Assembly (NCBI GenBank): GCA_030699455.1
Contig: JAUYMN010000005.1
Coordinates: 1 to 32,396 of the forward strand
Source: Nanobdellota archaeon
GTDB taxonomy: Archaea > Nanobdellota > Nanobdellia > SCGC-AAA011-G17 > UBA489
DNA length: 32,396 nt
Direction: 5' to 3'
The notes under the pieces were generated by a model that had not been told where the DNA came from, made no database searches, and worked only from the letters and a program-made list of their open reading frames with translations. A program made the position numbers and the translations under genes. Numbering within the stretch: the first letter of the stretch is position 1; every line of letters begins with the position of its first letter. Below are positions 5,452-32,396 of this stretch, in pieces.

Positions 5452-5676
5452 AGACGTCGACGGATCATAACCACAATAGATTATATTTTAACAGCATCCT
5501 AAAAACACGTCGTAGACGTCTACAAAATTACTGTTTATTTATAAAAGGCGTCGACGAGCTTTATAAAAGGCGTCGACGAACCTGTCGATAACGCGTCGAC
5601 GACGCGTCGACGACGTCTACGAACCGTCGACGACACGTCTGTAGACGTCTACGACACGTCGTAGAATCCTACGACG
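5452..5676. promoter_or_regulatory. Array of CGTCGACG / GTAGACGTCTAC palindromes
   Basis: Within 225 nt there are six exact copies of the self-complementary octamer CGTCGACG (starting at 5455, 5549, 5571, 5594, 5605 and 5625). There are also two exact copies of the 12-bp palindrome GTAGACGTCTAC (5512 and 5641) and an inverted pair CGTCGTAG-N4-CTACGACG (5657-5676). Start-to-start spacings in the core are 22, 23, 11 and 20 bp, close to whole helical turns. This is GC-rich in a very AT-rich intergenic region of 680 nt and sits just before the coiled-coil/winged-helix gene at 5729. It looks like a cooperative binding array: an operator, a partition site or part of an origin. The stretch from 5303 to 5450 holds nothing else I can name. 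Confidence 0.75.
5538..5579 (+). repeat. Two 20-nt direct repeats, TATA plus palindrome
   Basis: TTTATAAAAGGCGTCGACGA occurs twice exactly (5538-5557 and 5560-5579) with a 22-bp period. Each copy joins a TATA-like box to one CGTCGACG site. Neither box is at leaderless distance from the gene at 5729, whose nearer TATA-like run is GTTTATAAAGG at about 5697-5707. Confidence 0.85.
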
Positions 5677-10559: not shown

Positions 10560-11393
10560 TTACAGATTGTCCATTGGACTTTGCACTTTTTTTAGTTGTT
10601 CTGTAGACACCTTAGTATATCTCTGGGTTGTAGATATATCTGAGTGTCCCAATAGCTCTTGTATAATTCGTATATCTGTTCCGGTTTCCAACAGGTGTGT
10701 TGCAAAAGAGCTTCTTAATGCATGACAAAAAATCCGTTTTTTAATCCCTGATTCAACAGCAGCTTCATTGACAATCTTCTGTGCCATCCTTGTCGTTATA
10801 TGGCCTTTGTAGGAATTAAATATATAATCAGAATCATGTTTCCTATTTTTCAGATAATTTTTCAAATTTCCAATAAAACCGTTGGACAGTATTATGTTTC
10901 TATCTTTTTTGCCTTTTCCAGACCGAACAATGCCCATTTTTTCATGCAAATCCAAATCATTGACCTTTAATTTTACAGCCTCAGAAACTCTTAAACCAGA
11001 AGAATACAACAATTCAATCAATAACCGGTGTTTGGTATTTTTTGGAGCATCAAGCAACTGTCTTATTTCCAATTTAGTTAAAACTGTTGGCAATTTTTTC
11101 TCAATTTTTGGAGCTTTAACTTCTGTAAAAATATTCTTCTTTAGTATATTTGTAAAATAAAATTTTATAGAAGATAATGCCAAGTTAATTGAAGCAGGCT
11201 TATGTTTTTTTGACATAAGGTGAGCAATGTATTTTTTTACATCCTGTTCATTAACGCCCTTTACAGGCTTATTTACATAACTTAAAAAATCATTATTGTG
11301 CCTCAAATAACTTTTTATAGTTGCATCAGAATACCCTCTTATTTTTAATTCTGTTTTCAAATTATCCAAAACAACACCACCTTTTGTTCGCAT
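10560..11393 (-). CDS. xerA: XerA-type tyrosine recombinase
   Basis: This 277-residue tyrosine recombinase has an N-terminal SAM-like core-binding domain (residues 8-90) and a C-terminal catalytic domain with the full catalytic set: Arg135 (SGLRVSE), Lys160 (SGKGKKDR), His224 and Arg227 (CHALRSS), His250 (LLGHSD) and nucleophile Tyr259 (TQRYT). Archaeal XerA resolves chromosome dimers at dif; integrases of small elements look similar. The start was moved from TTG 11429 to ATG 11393, because the reverse-strand box ATTTAAGC is about 26 nt upstream of that ATG. It borders a run of accessory genes, so a role as an element integrase is an alternative. No att or dif site was recognised nearby. Confidence 0.88.
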   Translation of the reverse strand: MRTKGGVVLDNLKTELKIRGYSDATIKSYLRHNNDFLSYVNKPVKGVNEQDVKKYIAHLMSKKHKPASINLALSSIKFYFTNILKKNIFTEVKAPKIEKKLPTVLTKLEIRQLLDAPKNTKHRLLIELLYSSGLRVSEAVKLKVNDLDLHEKMGIVRSGKGKKDRNIILSNGFIGNLKNYLKNRKHDSDYIFNSYKGHITTRMAQKIVNEAAVESGIKKRIFCHALRSSFATHLLETGTDIRIIQELLGHSDISTTQRYTKVSTEQLKKVQSPMDNL

Positions 11394-11445
11394 AATATGG
11401 AGTAGATAAGAGCTTAAATATGTTTCCAACTTAAATAAAATTGCA

Positions 11446-27700: not shown

Positions 27701-28203
27701 GTGAATTATAATTTGATGCCGTTTATTAAATTAAGCATATTATTTCATAGAAATATTATCAAATAAATCTTAAACTTCAGAATACTTTCGGAAATAATTG
27801 GGAACAGCATTTAAACCGAAAATTCTGGAAGATTTTTATGAAAATTCCACTAAAACTGGTAAGAAGGATACTGTATATCACTCTGATTTTTATAAGATAT
27901 TTGCAGATAAGAAAGAAAAGGATAGATACTGAGTGTAGTTGTGATAATCTGGTAAGAGATAGATAGGTTGTTTAAAGAAGAGCTGAACTTCGTTGGGTTT
28001 GTAAATAAATGGTTGATATTATTCTAAGATATTTATATAGATATTACATGGGTATTACAAAAGACATAAAATGAAACACAAGATTTAATTCTACAATTTA
28101 CACAGATATGATTTTCACATTAAATGAACGTTTTATTGTTAAAAAAATAAAAGCATCATTTGTAATTTAACTACCATTACAAAATAGCAAAGCTCAAAAA
28201 AAC
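27701..28203. other. Intergenic region between radB and the accessory block
   Basis: About 500 nt without a long gene. It contains the 42-codon ORF at 27838, a short coding-like stretch in another frame of the same place (ending KKEKDRY), and a strong TATA-like run GATATTTATATAG near 28028 that precedes only tiny ORFs. It may hold gene relics or a small RNA; nothing further can be supported. Confidence 0.4.
27838..27966 (+). CDS. Possible 42-aa hydrophobic/basic peptide
   Basis: This short ORF reads MKIPLKLVRRILYITLIFIR and then a basic stretch with CSC. A TATA-like GCATTTAAACC is centred about 26 nt before the ATG, the spacing seen at leaderless genes here. The first 25 residues could be an amphipathic membrane helix, as in small toxins. 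Another frame is open over the same bases, so this could equally be a relic. Confidence 0.25.
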   Translation: MKIPLKLVRRILYITLIFIRYLQIRKKRIDTECSCDNLVRDR

Positions 28204-28241
28204 GGCTTTGCACAAAAACTAGCTGTCTTTTTGTGCAAAAT
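28204..28241. repeat. Hairpin and left copy of the 17-nt inverted repeat
   Basis: TTTGCACAAAAA (28207-28218) and TTTTTGTGCAAA (28228-28239) form a perfect 12-bp hairpin with a 9-nt loop over the stop of the next gene. The string GGCTTTGCACAAAAACT (28204-28220) is the exact reverse complement of 32246-32262, about 4 kb away. It may be a terminator, a terminal repeat or both. Confidence 0.8.
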
Positions 28242-28935
28242 CAAAAGTTTTATACTTTTCAAGAGTATACTTTTCAAAATTAGAAATACTTTCTTTATTT
28301 CCAGATTTCAACTCTTTTATGTACTTGTAAAAATCCTGAGAGATTATACCCAAGAATTTGCAAGGGTTTATCAAGATAGTTCTTTCTTTCGTACCAGTCT
28401 CTCTTAAATAAAGAGCAGCATCAAAATCCCTAGACACAACCACATCTTTTTTTATCATACCATCATGAAACAAGCCGCATCTAACTTGATCATAAAAATG
28501 TTCGAGTCTTTTTTCTGAGATTATGTTATTGGAAATTTTAAAGATTCTTCTAAATCCGCGAATAAAACATTTTTTAGAACTATTTCGACTTGGTTTTCCT
28601 TCCCTATACTGCTGATTTCCTTCTATATAGCTAATTGCAATTTGAAGTACAACCAAATCATTATTTTTATCCTTCATTAACTTTTTTGCAACATCTAAAA
28701 ACCAACCATTTACTTGGTCTTCATAAATTAGTATTCGTGTTTCTATTTTATTAATATCATATTCATTAAACCAATCAGGTTTATTTAGGTCTAGCCATTT
28801 TCTTTTATTTATTGTAACTTCTTTTCCTTTTATCAATAGCTGGTAAAAATTTTTACTTACTGCCTTTTTTTGATATTTCCATTTTAATTGATTCCTAAAT
28901 ATTTTGTAGTAGTTTTTCATTTTATTTTTATACAA
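28219..28935 (-). CDS. HEPN-like protein, possible defence ribonuclease (A)
   Basis: This 238-residue helical protein has VRCGLFHDGM near residues 151-160. Arg152 and His157 fit the Rx4H catalytic motif of HEPN ribonucleases, found in toxins, abortive-infection proteins and CRISPR effectors. An upstream helix with SYIEGNQQYREG precedes it, as expected for the first acidic/polar helix of such folds. It has no membrane segment. The start overlaps the neighbouring HEPN-like gene by up to 8 nt (an inner ATG at 28920 would avoid this), so the two are translated from one mRNA. It ends inside a perfect hairpin. The fold is inferred from pattern; an RNase role is likely but unproven. Confidence 0.6.
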   Translation of the reverse strand: MYKNKMKNYYKIFRNQLKWKYQKKAVSKNFYQLLIKGKEVTINKRKWLDLNKPDWFNEYDINKIETRILIYEDQVNGWFLDVAKKLMKDKNNDLVVLQIAISYIEGNQQYREGKPSRNSSKKCFIRGFRRIFKISNNIISEKRLEHFYDQVRCGLFHDGMIKKDVVVSRDFDAALYLRETGTKERTILINPCKFLGIISQDFYKYIKELKSGNKESISNFEKYTLEKYKTFDFAQKDS

Positions 28936-29716
28936 AATTTCTTTCTAGTTCCTCGATTTTGGTTTTAACTTCATTATTTGAAAGGTCTAGCCACGGAAGC
29001 AGATGATATACTAATGCTGTATTTTCAACACTATGCATACTTAGTATTACAGTATGTACATCTTTTAGTTTTTCATAAATTTCTGCAACACTATACCTCG
29101 CAATTTCTTTCGGTTTGACTTTTTTAGTGTCTCTAAAGACTATCGTTGCTGGAGGCTCAAAATATGTGCCTTCGTGGTCAACACTGTTTCTTAATGTTGA
29201 ATCTACAAAAGATTTGATATTGTCTAATTTCAATGAATATTTTTTTTCTAGTTCTGATAGACAGTTTAATAGTCTTGGAATGCTCAACTGGTTTTCATTA
29301 GGATTTAGTCCACATAAATAAACAACCCTTTTCAGCTTTTTCCAAAAGATTTCACAAGTGGAAGCATAAGCTCTTCCAAGTTTCAAAGCAGTAATCTCAT
29401 TTACATCTTGGTGTAATTCCTTGACCATCTCAGCCTGTTCTTTTAGCCGTTGTATAATTCCAAGACCCTCGACATGGTCTTTGAGTATTGTAAAATTTAT
29501 CCATATTTGTTCTTTCCAGATTTCTCCAATAACTTTAGCATATTCTCTATTTATTTGAAGAAATAAGTTGAGTCTATCAGGTCTTCCCCTAAAAATAGGC
29601 AAGAAGGGTAAGTCTTTACATTGTTTTTCGTTTATTTCTTTCAAATTTCTTATCGCTTTTTTTGGGTCTTTCAAAAAATCTTTCTGCATATCTTTAATAT
29701 CTTGTAATGTAACCAT
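28928..29716 (-). CDS. HEPN-like protein, possible defence ribonuclease (B)
   Basis: This 262-residue all-helical protein contains STLRNSVDHEGTYF; Arg176 and His181 again form an Rx4H HEPN motif. Its N-terminal 100 residues are a long helical region (QDIKDMQKDFLKDPKK through RLKEQAEMVKELHQD) that may be a recognition or partner-binding part. It is the promoter-proximal gene of the pair: a reverse-strand TTTATATA lies 27 nt (centre) before ATG 29716, so I use that instead of the track's TTG at 29725. The two proteins share the motif but no obvious overall similarity, so they may form a heteromeric complex or effector/regulator pair. Confidence 0.58.
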   Translation of the reverse strand: MVTLQDIKDMQKDFLKDPKKAIRNLKEINEKQCKDLPFLPIFRGRPDRLNLFLQINREYAKVIGEIWKEQIWINFTILKDHVEGLGIIQRLKEQAEMVKELHQDVNEITALKLGRAYASTCEIFWKKLKRVVYLCGLNPNENQLSIPRLLNCLSELEKKYSLKLDNIKSFVDSTLRNSVDHEGTYFEPPATIVFRDTKKVKPKEIARYSVAEIYEKLKDVHTVILSMHSVENTALVYHLLPWLDLSNNEVKTKIEELERNFV

Positions 29717-29793
29717 TTTGAACAATTAGCAATCACTTGTATATAAAGAATAGTTCCATTACCCGAAGGCTCTGTAGAAAGTTAAAGATTTAA

Positions 29794-29809
29794 GGAGGCT
29801 TGCGCCTCC
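29794..29809 (+). repeat. GC-rich hairpin at the edge of the transferred segment
   Basis: GGAGGC-TTGC-GCCTCC is a perfect 6-bp stem with a 4-nt loop, unusual in this AT-rich DNA. It stands between the divergent HEPN operon and the plus-strand nuclease/methylase genes, and marks the point where G+C content rises. Confidence 0.65.
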
Positions 29810-29837
29810 ACCCCAGTATCAAGCAAGATATGAGGTG

Positions 29838-29963
29838 ATGAGAATGGTGCAGTTTAATTATAATAAACTTGTGGCAGAAGCCCACAAGGTCATCGCAGAG
29901 GAACATGTTCCTCTGCATTGGAGCAAGACAAAAAATGAATTGTTTGATATACATACCATATGA
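29838..29963 (+). CDS. Possible 41-aa ORF (relic or leader)
   Basis: The peptide starts MRMVQFNYNKLVAEAHKVIA and contains VPLHWSK. Its codons use more G and C than the neighbouring genes. The sequence ATGAGGTGATG just upstream looks Shine-Dalgarno-like. It is in the same frame as the nuclease gene 40 nt downstream. It may be a truncated gene brought in with this segment; I recognise no family. Confidence 0.3.
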   Translation: MRMVQFNYNKLVAEAHKVIAEEHVPLHWSKTKNELFDIHTI

Positions 29964-30002
29964 ATATTGTTCGTGCTTTTTCCAGGTTGAGCAGAAGGAT
30001 TA

Positions 30003-30659
30003 TTGTCAATAAATGTAATGCTTGAATGCGAGAGGTGTTTCTGGCTTCAGCTCATTAAGAAAATAAAGAGACCATCAGGGGCATTTCCTTCACTTCCTGG
30101 AGGCATGGACAAGATTCTTAAGTAGCATTTTGATAGGTTCATGGAGAAGGACGAGCTTCCGCCAGAAATTAGAAAGCAAGGCGTTGCCAACGGCTATAAA
30201 TTGATTGATGACAAAGCAATATTAGAAATTTGGAGAAAAAACAGAAAAGGCGTTCAGTATAAAGATAAGACATCAGGAATAATCTTGATGGGTGCCGTCG
30301 ACAATATCCTATCCAATGGCAAGAAGCTTGTCGTATTGGACTACAAGACAAGAGGTTATCCTCTCAAGGAAGATACAGCAGAGCATTATCAGGCACAGCT
30401 AGACATCTACAATTTCCTCCTGAGAGAGAATGGTTATGACACCGTAGATTACGCTTACCTTTTATTTTACCATCCTGAGAAAGTGCTGGATAATGGTGAT
30501 GTAGTATTTAATACAGACTTGGTAAAAATAAATACAAATGCCGAAAATGGTTCGAAAGTTTTCAGGAAAGCTATAAAAATATTGGAGTCTAATAAAGCTC
30601 CTGAGTCGAGTCGAGATTGCAAGTTTTGTAAGTACCTTAAAGAAGGAGGTAGCTCTTAA
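30003..30659 (+). pseudogene. PD-(D/E)XK nuclease (Cas4/RecB-like) with in-frame TAG
   Basis: The frame from TTG 30003 (MSINVMLECERCFWLQ...) runs through GAFPSLPGGMDKILK to a TAG at 30123-30125. It then continues without any shift as HFDRFMEKDELPPEIRKQG to 30659. The downstream part has the nuclease core, with Asp in MGAVDNIL and the D-x-K of VVLDYKT, and ends in CKFCKY. With the N-terminal CERC these Cys recall the iron-sulfur cluster of Cas4-like nucleases. The family is PDDEXK_1. The ORF track gives only the part from ATG 30141, which would lose CERC. The lesion is one nucleotide from a sense codon, so it is a young pseudogene, a sequencing error or, less likely, readthrough. Confidence 0.7.
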
Positions 30660-30660
30660 A

Positions 30661-30828
30661 ATGGGTGGTGGAAAGCGCAATTATCGGACTATGAGGTCAC
30701 AGTTTAGAAAAAAAGCAAAAAAAGATGAATCACAAGATAAGGTTGATGAACCTAAGAAAAAACCAAGCGATGAAGACGTAAATAAACTTTTGGAGTTGTT
30801 TAAGAAAAAAGATGATGAAAAAAATTGA
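30661..30828 (+). CDS. Small charged protein between nuclease and methylase
   Basis: This 55-residue protein is too short for the track. It starts MGGGKRNYRTMRSQFRKKAK and ends in an acidic/basic helix (EDVNKLLELFKKKDDEKN). It has a perfect Shine-Dalgarno-like GGAGGT (30645-30650) 10 nt before the ATG, inside the end of the nuclease frame, and it overlaps the dam start by 17 nt. The tight packing suggests one operon. The function is unknown; it may be a small DNA-binding or regulatory subunit. Confidence 0.55.
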   Translation: MGGGKRNYRTMRSQFRKKAKKDESQDKVDEPKKKPSDEDVNKLLELFKKKDDEKN

Positions 30829-31642
30829 CAGGCCTACATTTGTGAAGTGGGCTGGTGGGAAAAAACAATTGATAGAACAATTTAAACAATTTTTTCCACA
30901 AGAAGCAGAAAGATACTTTGAACCATTTGTTGGTGGCGGTGCAGTTGCTTTCTATGTTATACAAAAGAACCACCTGAAAGAAATTTACCTGTCAGATATA
31001 AATGAAGAATTAATCAATTGTTATGAAGTGATACGGGGCAATGTTGAAGAATTAATAGACAAACTGAAACAACACCGAAACAATCATAATAAGGAATATT
31101 ATTATGCTATAAGAGAATTGACACCAGAAATTTTATCGAAAGTAGAAAGAGCCTCAATATTTATTTACTTAAATAAAACTTGTTTTAATGGTTTATACAG
31201 GGTAAATTCAAAAGGAAAATTTAATGTTCCAATGGGGAGCTATAAGAACCCATCAATCTTCCACGAAGATGATTTAAGAGAACTATCAAAAATACTGAAA
31301 AATGTAAAAATCTTAAAAATGCATTTTGAGAAAGTATCAGAATATGCAAAAAAAGGAGACTTTATTTATTTTGACCCGCCTTATTACCCTCTTCAAAAAG
31401 GGAAAAGCTTCACATCATATACAAAAAATAATTTTTCAGAAAAAGACCAGATAAGATTAGCAGAGGTATTTCGAGAGCTAGACAAGAAAGGTTGTAAGGT
31501 TATGTTATCCAACAGCGACACAAAATTTATCAAAGAATTATACCAAGGATACAATATTCACATTGTTAAAGCAAAAAGAATGATAAATTGCGATGCCACA
31601 AAACGAGGGGCTATAAATGAGGTCGTCGTAACAAATTATTAA
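30812..31642 (+). CDS. Dam-family DNA adenine-N6 methyltransferase
   Basis: This 276-residue enzyme transfers a methyl group from S-adenosylmethionine to adenine N6 in DNA. The SAM-binding motif FEPFVGGGAV is at about residue 35 and the catalytic DPPYYPL near residue 190, in the order of alpha-class D12/Dam enzymes. WAGGKKQL at the N-terminus is also typical. The sequence specificity (often GATC) cannot be read from motifs. The ATG at 30812 or 30815 lies inside the end of the 55-aa gene. It is convergent with the gene at 31639-32169 (4-nt overlap), an arrangement common in restriction-modification pairs. Confidence 0.93.
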   Translation: MMKKIDRPTFVKWAGGKKQLIEQFKQFFPQEAERYFEPFVGGGAVAFYVIQKNHLKEIYLSDINEELINCYEVIRGNVEELIDKLKQHRNNHNKEYYYAIRELTPEILSKVERASIFIYLNKTCFNGLYRVNSKGKFNVPMGSYKNPSIFHEDDLRELSKILKNVKILKMHFEKVSEYAKKGDFIYFDPPYYPLQKGKSFTSYTKNNFSEKDQIRLAEVFRELDKKGCKVMLSNSDTKFIKELYQGYNIHIVKAKRMINCDATKRGAINEVVVTNY

Positions 31643-32169
31643 CCACCAATTTGAGTTGCTTTGCTTACAATAACAAATATTTCTTTCTCTTGCAATATAC
31701 TATCCATTAATTCCTTAAAAACTCTTGCTGGCTTTTCAGGAGGCATATTTTTCTCCATTTTTATCATTAATTCAATTAGATGTCCAATAAACTCAACAGA
31801 ATACTCGCCATATTTATTAAGCTCATTAAACTCCTCAAGCTTCTCTGGAGTTGTTTCTCTCAATTCACATTTGGCTCTGTCTTCTTTACTACAAAATCCT
31901 TCTACACGTTCATACATATCTCTTAAATATTTTAAGAATTTCATAGTAAGTTCTTTATCATGCTCTTTTTTAACCAAAATATCTATAACCCAATGAATAT
32001 GTTTTGGCGTTCTAACTCTCTTTCCATCTTCTTTGTATTTAATTAAAATGTCGTGGTCTGGATTATGCCCTCTACTTCCTTCAAAGACACCAATAGTAAC
32101 CCCATCCAATTTGATCTCTTTGATTGATTTAGCTTTTCTACCTGTTCCATCTCTTGGAGAGTATTCCAT
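31639..32169 (-). CDS. Unknown protein, candidate restriction partner of the Dam enzyme
   Basis: This 176-residue protein is unrecognised. It contains a charged block (SRGHNPDHDILIKYKEDGKR) and RTPKHIHWVIDILVKKEHD, then a Cys pair (EGFCSKEDRAKC) and a helical end. The PD...(E/D)-x-K spacing of a restriction nuclease might be hidden in the first block, but it is not clean. I use ATG 32169 instead of TTG 32181, because a reverse TTTAAATA box is centred 26 nt upstream of it. Three TTTTGTGCA units at about 20-bp spacing lie upstream of that box. Position, facing the dam gene tail to tail, is the main hint of function. Confidence 0.55.
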   Translation of the reverse strand: MEYSPRDGTGRKAKSIKEIKLDGVTIGVFEGSRGHNPDHDILIKYKEDGKRVRTPKHIHWVIDILVKKEHDKELTMKFLKYLRDMYERVEGFCSKEDRAKCELRETTPEKLEEFNELNKYGEYSVEFIGHLIELMIKMEKNMPPEKPARVFKELMDSILQEKEIFVIVSKATQIGG

Positions 32170-32206
32170 AACTTTGGGCAATACCTTCTGTTATTTAAAG
32201 AATCCG

Positions 32207-32262
32207 ACTTTTTGTGCAACACACCTACATTTTGTGCAGAAAGTGAGTTTTTGTGCAAAGCC
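32207..32262. promoter_or_regulatory. Three TTTTGTGCA repeats and right copy of 17-nt inverted repeat
   Basis: TTTTGTGCA starts at 32210, 32230 and 32249 (spacing 20 and 19 bp), upstream of the TATA box of the minus-strand gene. The last copy is part of AGTTTTTGTGCAAAGCC (32246-32262), the exact reverse complement of 28204-28220. The even spacing suggests binding on one DNA face: an operator, iteron or element end. Confidence 0.7.
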
Positions 32263-32277
32263 CAAAAAAACATAACA

Positions 32278-32314
32278 TTTATATACAAGACATGTATACA
32301 CAGACGTATACACA
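32278..32314 (+). promoter_or_regulatory. TATA box and direct repeats before the last gene
   Basis: TTTATATA (32278-32285) is followed by two exact 9-bp repeats GTATACACA (32294-32302 and 32306-32314, 12-bp period), the second touching the ATG at 32315. Each contains the palindrome GTATAC. The position over the expected transcription start fits a repressor site. Confidence 0.55.
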
Positions 32315-32396
32315 ATGAAATCAATCAATGAAGCCTCAATAATCTGTAATAATTGTAATACACATACAACCAAAACATGTATAATAAAGAACGGTT
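32315..32396 (+). CDS. Start of a Cys-containing protein, cut by window end
   Basis: The first 27 residues, beginning MKSINEASIICNNCNTHTTK, contain CNNC and a later Cys, as in a zinc-binding protein. The TATA box at 32278 and the ATG spacing support expression. The rest lies outside the window, so no family can be given. Confidence 0.45.
   Translation, partial: MKSINEASIICNNCNTHTTKTCIIKNG

Follow-up and report, generated by a model that had tools for sequence, protein, structure and literature searches.

A probable transposase-less member of a promoter-register, defence-cargo transposon family in a Nanobdellota archaeon

Analysis of a 32,396-nt stretch of DNA from a Nanobdellota archaeon (the window) revealed that the block at 28204-32262 (4,059 bp, or 4.06 kb) is very probably a transposase-less member of a DDE (IS5/IS903-like) transposon family with a fixed promoter register and defence-type cargo; mobilisation in trans, guidance to promoters and the action of the cargo are presumptive parts of this reading. 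At the sequence level, the element and its relatives display terminal repeats, target duplication, empty sites, an autonomous family, a cargo bias and the fixed promoter register. The family represents previously unremarked archaeal transposons, which are widespread in this DPANN phylum, and in the open-licence literature no account was found of a family of this kind or of archaeal targeting by promoter register. The original prediction had taken the block for a compact defence or mobile module. A mobile module is well supported by the paired ends, the duplicated target, the empty site and the autonomous family; a compact defence system of six genes is not supported.

Borders and insertion site

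The 17-nt repeat AGTTTTTGTGCAAAGCC, which had been predicted to frame the block as an exact inverted repeat, was indeed found exact (17/17) at both ends in opposite orientations (28204-28220 on the minus strand and 32246-32262 on the plus strand), with GG...CC as its outer ends and with arms of 25 nt at 88% when mismatches are allowed. A common terminator hairpin had been raised as a possible objection; the genome-wide check found two copies in 770 kb, both at the block ends, which rules out a terminator or scattered repeat. Since a fair share of the simulations of AT-rich sequence like that of the window contained inverted 17-mer matches, the 17-nt repeat by itself is weaker evidence. Directly outside both repeats lies the 9-bp sequence CAAAAAAAC, identical at 9/9 positions (both copies are A-rich, although nine bases would agree by chance at a given place with a probability of only about 1e-5). 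An unbiased scan for terminal-repeat pairs with an exact flanking 9-bp duplication returned only this pair from the whole window. In 570 kb of archaeal DNA, window included, 10 such pairs were found at the true offset and none when the duplication was sought at five shifted offsets.

To the right of the element, 134 bp run on into contig C27 (141-bp contig overlap), which continues with an AbrB-like gene and then a VAT/Cdc48 ATPase (names from our own sequence reading). Comparison of related genomes with and without the block, proposed in the original prediction, revealed the empty site in two genomes of the same genus (G001 and G004), where no more than about 100 bp separate the left neighbour, an AAA-ATPase gene, from the same promoter and gene; the element is absent and the target promoter intact. 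The site is occupied in G002 and G003 by different sequence, which bears a related terminal repeat and stops at the identical base, with 15 bp left to the TATA box. The left borders of these two insertions were looked for and not found, so they are taken as partial or old elements. The sequence occupying the site in G003 contains HEPN-like genes (L153, 1270-2778). The 141-bp overlap between contigs C14 and C27 (window 32256-32396) begins 7 bp inside the element end, which suggests strain variation at the junction. Elsewhere in the window, there are an inverted repeat GTCGTAGACGTCTACA with arms about 130 bp apart (5509-5656) and an XerC/D-like tyrosine recombinase (10560-11429), possibly a chromosomal Xer or part of an integrated element.

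Genes carried by the element

Table 1. Features of the window element and its flanks (positions in the window)
Feature	Position	Strand	Remark
AGCTTTGC, probable relic end of older element against target duplication	28187-28194	-	End consensus of family 6/7, right beyond the 9-bp duplication; several other elements alike
Left target duplication CAAAAAAAC	28195-28203		Exact copy at 32263-32271
Left end, transposase-proximal type GGCTTTGCACAAAAACTAGCTGTCTTTTTGTGCAAAA: terminal repeat and inverted subterminal copy	28204-28240	+	Dyad layout as in proximal ends of L051, L093, L099
HEPN1, HEPN-like, R-x4-H (RCGLFH)	28219-28935	-	Stop codon inside terminal repeat
HEPN2, HEPN-like, RN-x3-H (RNSVDH)	28928-29725	-	Motif kept in sole homologue found
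Relic of unrelated IS, end GGCTCTGTAGAAAG... and possible start of transposase ORF	29768-29963	+	
PD-(D/E)XK (Cas4/RecB-like) nuclease pseudogene	30003-30659	+	PF12705 E=2.6e-10
55-aa lysine-rich ORF	30661-30828	+	
Dam-family (D12) adenine-N6 DNA methyltransferase, GATC type by family	30812-31642	+	TIGR00571 E=5.5e-98
P6, uncharacterised protein, conserved partner of GATC-type methylases	31639-32169	-	
TTTAAATA, likely P6 promoter, inward-facing from right end	32192-32199	-	About 22 bp before P6 ATG; similar box likewise placed in other distal ends
Right end, transposase-distal type: terminal repeat and two further direct GCACAAAA copies, 19-20 bp apart	32204-32262	-	Layout as in distal ends of L049, L093, L094
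Right target duplication CAAAAAAAC	32263-32271		
Target promoter of AbrB-like gene (start 32315): BRE-like ATAACA 32272-32277, TATA box TTTATATA 32278-32285	32272-32285	+	Intact in empty sites G001, G004; family-wide register

The gene content described in the original prediction largely stood (Table 1), with corrections: among others, the Cas4-like gene is a pseudogene, and ATG at 32169 is a more likely start of P6 than TTG at 32181. R152 and H157 of HEPN1 are invariant in six homologues. Homologues of HEPN1 occur in 6/371 genomes of the phylum and HEPN2 is present in 2/371, and a search for the HEPN genes in viral contigs gave no match. Within the IS relic, which sits before the Cas4-like gene, 107 bp (29768-29874) are 92% identical to G000:C23:35308-35414. 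The Cas4-like gene lacks its 5' end with the start region and has an in-frame TAG at 30123-30125; intact counterparts carried by elements L049 and L093 share 55-56% identity with it, and a similar gene is present in L171. Assignment to CRISPR Cas4 was rejected on a TIGR00372 score of 40.5 (cut-off 65) and the broken state of the gene. The 55-aa ORF had no family match above cut-off.

P6 was found in 15/371 genomes of the phylum, adjoining a Dam-like or DpnA-like methyltransferase in every copy except one truncated (the DpnA likeness is our own sequence reading), and its named relatives were found only in DPANN archaea (Pacearchaeota, Woesearchaeota and Aenigmatarchaeota). P6 with a GATC-type methylase is the sole conserved pair among the six window genes, and the core of the window cargo is this restriction-modification-type pair of Dam-like methyltransferase and P6. 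Since the neighbouring methylases are either Dam-like or DpnA-like, a GATC-related role of P6 is suggested. Of a type II restriction-modification system for GATC, the Dam-type methylase is present in the element (TIGR00571), and P6 might be its cognate restriction endonuclease with a new fold, a tentative reading which we consider quite possible, short of probable, and which is compatible with the transposon explanation. The placement of P6 convergent with or adjacent to Dam-like and DpnA-like methylases, interchangeably and in nearly all copies, speaks for such an enzyme. However, no PD-(D/E)XK, HNH or GIY motif was recognised in P6, its structure model (pLDDT 75) had no usable PDB match, and fold and motif give no enzyme class. 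Furthermore, at locus L114 a separate PD-(D/E)XK-like gene lies between Dam and P6, which would leave P6 a possible role as regulator or accessory protein. With this gene at 954-1532 and P6 flanked on its far side by a DpnA-like methylase, L114 shows a fuller GATC-type restriction-modification layout. Searches for P6 in phage, plasmid and viral collections gave no match; with this result and that for the HEPN genes, a viral or plasmid origin of the cargo was dropped. Within the archaeal DNA examined, the window element is the only member of the transposon family that contains P6.

Transposon family and promoter register

Matches to the 17-nt repeat were detected in 17/371 genomes of the phylum (0 for the reversed control), some of them by chance and others bounding complete elements. 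L049 encodes a 360-aa DDE_Tnp_1 transposase which is closest to NCBIfam IS5_2 (NF033579) and falls under its cut-off. As the best transposase score is 137.5 against a cut-off of 140, the family is called 'IS5/IS903-like' and is not placed as an IS5 member. A profile of two L049-type transposases had matches in 53/371 genomes of the phylum. One fixed rule, which favoured 9/9 duplications without requiring them, delimited 13 complete elements at first and then 7 more independent ones; these 20 are 3.9-9.1 kb long, and all 20 have an exact 9-bp duplication. L172 and L177 (weak boundaries) and L160 (duplicate of L104) were left out of the count. Gene-less miniatures were found as well (L032, L022 and, on a viral-collection contig, L040). 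Exact 15-mer matches of the repeat in L042, L044-L047, L053 and L054, with neither mate nor promoter, were taken as chance. The transposases of L094, L104, L106 and L175 have an N-terminal SWIM-like zinc motif (CxCx..CxH) and that of L096 a zinc ribbon; these variable N-terminal domains might be relevant to targeting.

At the proximal end of autonomous members, the transposase gene ends in or beside the terminal repeat, and the end consists of the repeat, often CTAG, and an inverted copy; at the distal end, direct repeats stand at intervals of about 19-20 bp, and an inward TATA-like box often comes next. The window element shows the same asymmetry, with the proximal type at the left and the distal type at the right, which would put the missing transposase on the left side. 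HEPN1 reads into the left end, and its stop is the same in-repeat codon as in several family transposases. No transposase was found in the block, or in the window's genome (83% complete), including by the profile. Because the family's asymmetric ends are present and the transposase is absent, the window element, with its cargo and its autonomous relatives, is by sequence a non-autonomous 'mobile insertion cassette'. It would be mobilised in trans, for which the MITE-size relatives L032 and L022 provide indirect support.

Outward from the element, the 9-bp duplication is followed by GAAANN or similar and then, from base 16, by TTTATATA or close variants. The promoter is on one side, which can be at either element end; among the first 13 elements this holds for 12 (the exception is L099), and the single register (element end, 9-bp duplication, BRE, TATA at bp 16) is found in 18/20 complete elements and in the window's; L099 and L176 have no promoter, and L056 is off by one. 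The promoter belongs to the target, since the duplication does not include it and the empty sites have it intact. A matrix was built from 15 flanks that did not include the window's (13 from transposase-bearing elements and 2 from miniatures). When it was applied to 15 further flanks, position 10 (10-25) ranked top of 51 or 102 offsets in 13 of these held-out flanks, window included (background P-value for the window = 6e-5). For the two exceptions, L056 scored best one base earlier and L176 failed. G002 and G003 have the window's promoter and do not count as independent promoters, and chance 15-mer matches had background-level scores. In 6/19 elements (window included), compared with 0.7% expected, the duplication is bordered on its promoter-distant side by a second end resembling those of the family, as repeated insertion at one and the same base would produce.

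The register upstream of TATA might be caused by selection only, if insertion were random and survivors were those where promoters stay intact; streamlined genomes purge disruptive insertions, and BRE/TATA is left intact here. However, selection would give a spread of distances, while the offset is base-exact in 18/20 complete elements and ranked first of 102 in held-out cases. The excess of second ends at the same duplication and the occupation of G002 and G003 at the same base as the window also stand against it, and we consider it very unlikely. The pattern points instead to promoter targeting, possibly through contact with TBP/TFB or through a DNA motif.

In the transposon explanation, the element inserted directly upstream of the BRE/TATA of the AbrB-like gene with a 9-bp target duplication and has lost its transposase gene, which makes it a mobile insertion cassette. 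A cognate transposase in trans would bind the terminal and subterminal TTTTTGTGCA repeats and be guided to the promoter by BRE/TATA DNA or by bound TBP/TFB, and insertion just upstream would spare the core promoter of the neighbour gene. The cargo (Dam-like methyltransferase with P6, and the HEPN proteins) would act as independent defence or addiction genes. Yeast Ty1 and Ty3 integrate in a fixed window beside Pol III promoters, which are spared, under guidance by TFIIIB/Pol III. The family is alike in its fixed window beside promoters that are not destroyed, although it is an archaeal DDE DNA transposon and they are retroelements. By analogy, the family could be an archaeal Ty1/Ty3 counterpart guided by general transcription factors (TBP/TFB on BRE-TATA), which adds one defence cassette after another at a single promoter and so creates islands of defence genes where a minimal genome can safely hold them; we give this nearly an even chance.

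Family cargo and known systems

The 47 cargo proteins of the first 13 elements include about 11 DNA methylases of various classes (Pfam), while the flanks of these elements have at least one among the matches listed for 81 proteins (P-value = 6e-5 with 1 in the flanks and 1e-3 with 3 assumed, Fisher test). The cargo, which is rich in restriction-modification genes, includes type I, IIG and III-like restriction-modification, a cytosine methylase with Vsr, an EcoRI-type methylase with GmrSD-like genes and a DarT-macro fusion, for all of which a defence function is presumed from sequence. The fusion of a DarT ADP-ribosyltransferase to a macro domain is encoded at L099:4170-5435, in the element without the usual promoter flank.

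The six window genes are transposon cargo and not one conserved system: a dedicated six-gene defence system moving as a unit with the repeats as its borders, a reading which the RNase-like, DNase-like and methylase genes within one bounded block had invited, is scarcely credible and largely refuted, as the co-occurrence check proposed in the original prediction placed homologues of HEPN1, HEPN2 and P6 in separate genomes and contexts with only the window's genome in common, relatives of the Cas4-like gene likewise occur apart from the others, the nuclease is a pseudogene, and other elements have the same ends and different cargo.

The IS903 subgroup of IS5 has a 9-bp duplication and GGCTTTG ends. 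The family shares both features and has a DDE_Tnp_1 transposase closest to NF033579, but it is much larger, has cargo, subterminal repeat arrays and promoter targeting, and scores below the curated cut-off. Mobile insertion cassettes (MIC231) and transporter IS combine IS ends, target duplication and passenger genes, with the transposase absent from the former and present in the latter (PMC3129680; PMC2266710). The family is alike in these three features and differs in being IS5/IS903-like rather than IS4/IS231, archaeal, usually loaded with defence-type cargo and fixed in promoter register. Tn7-like transposons with defence cargo, most commonly restriction-modification, also have repeat arrays at asymmetric ends and a site preference, and are reported absent from archaea (PMC8649781); in contrast, the family has a single DDE_Tnp_1 transposase and a 9-bp instead of 5-bp duplication, and no TnsABC-like genes were seen in its elements.

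Restriction-modification is reported to be underrepresented in DPANN archaea (PMC12988326). With its exact borders, the family provides a well-delimited vehicle that bears on how minimal DPANN genomes gain defence, and its cargo can be mined for new defence genes, P6 being one candidate. If the register is transposase-directed, this would be a rare instance in prokaryotes of a transposon directed at the machinery that starts transcription, and it might be put to use for safe-site integration in archaea. Two contigs of G169 (L050 1-5463 and L051 877-2187) have the common duplication TGGAAAAGA and may be one element, in which case the radical-SAM, nitroreductase and pyrB-like genes of L050 would be cargo.
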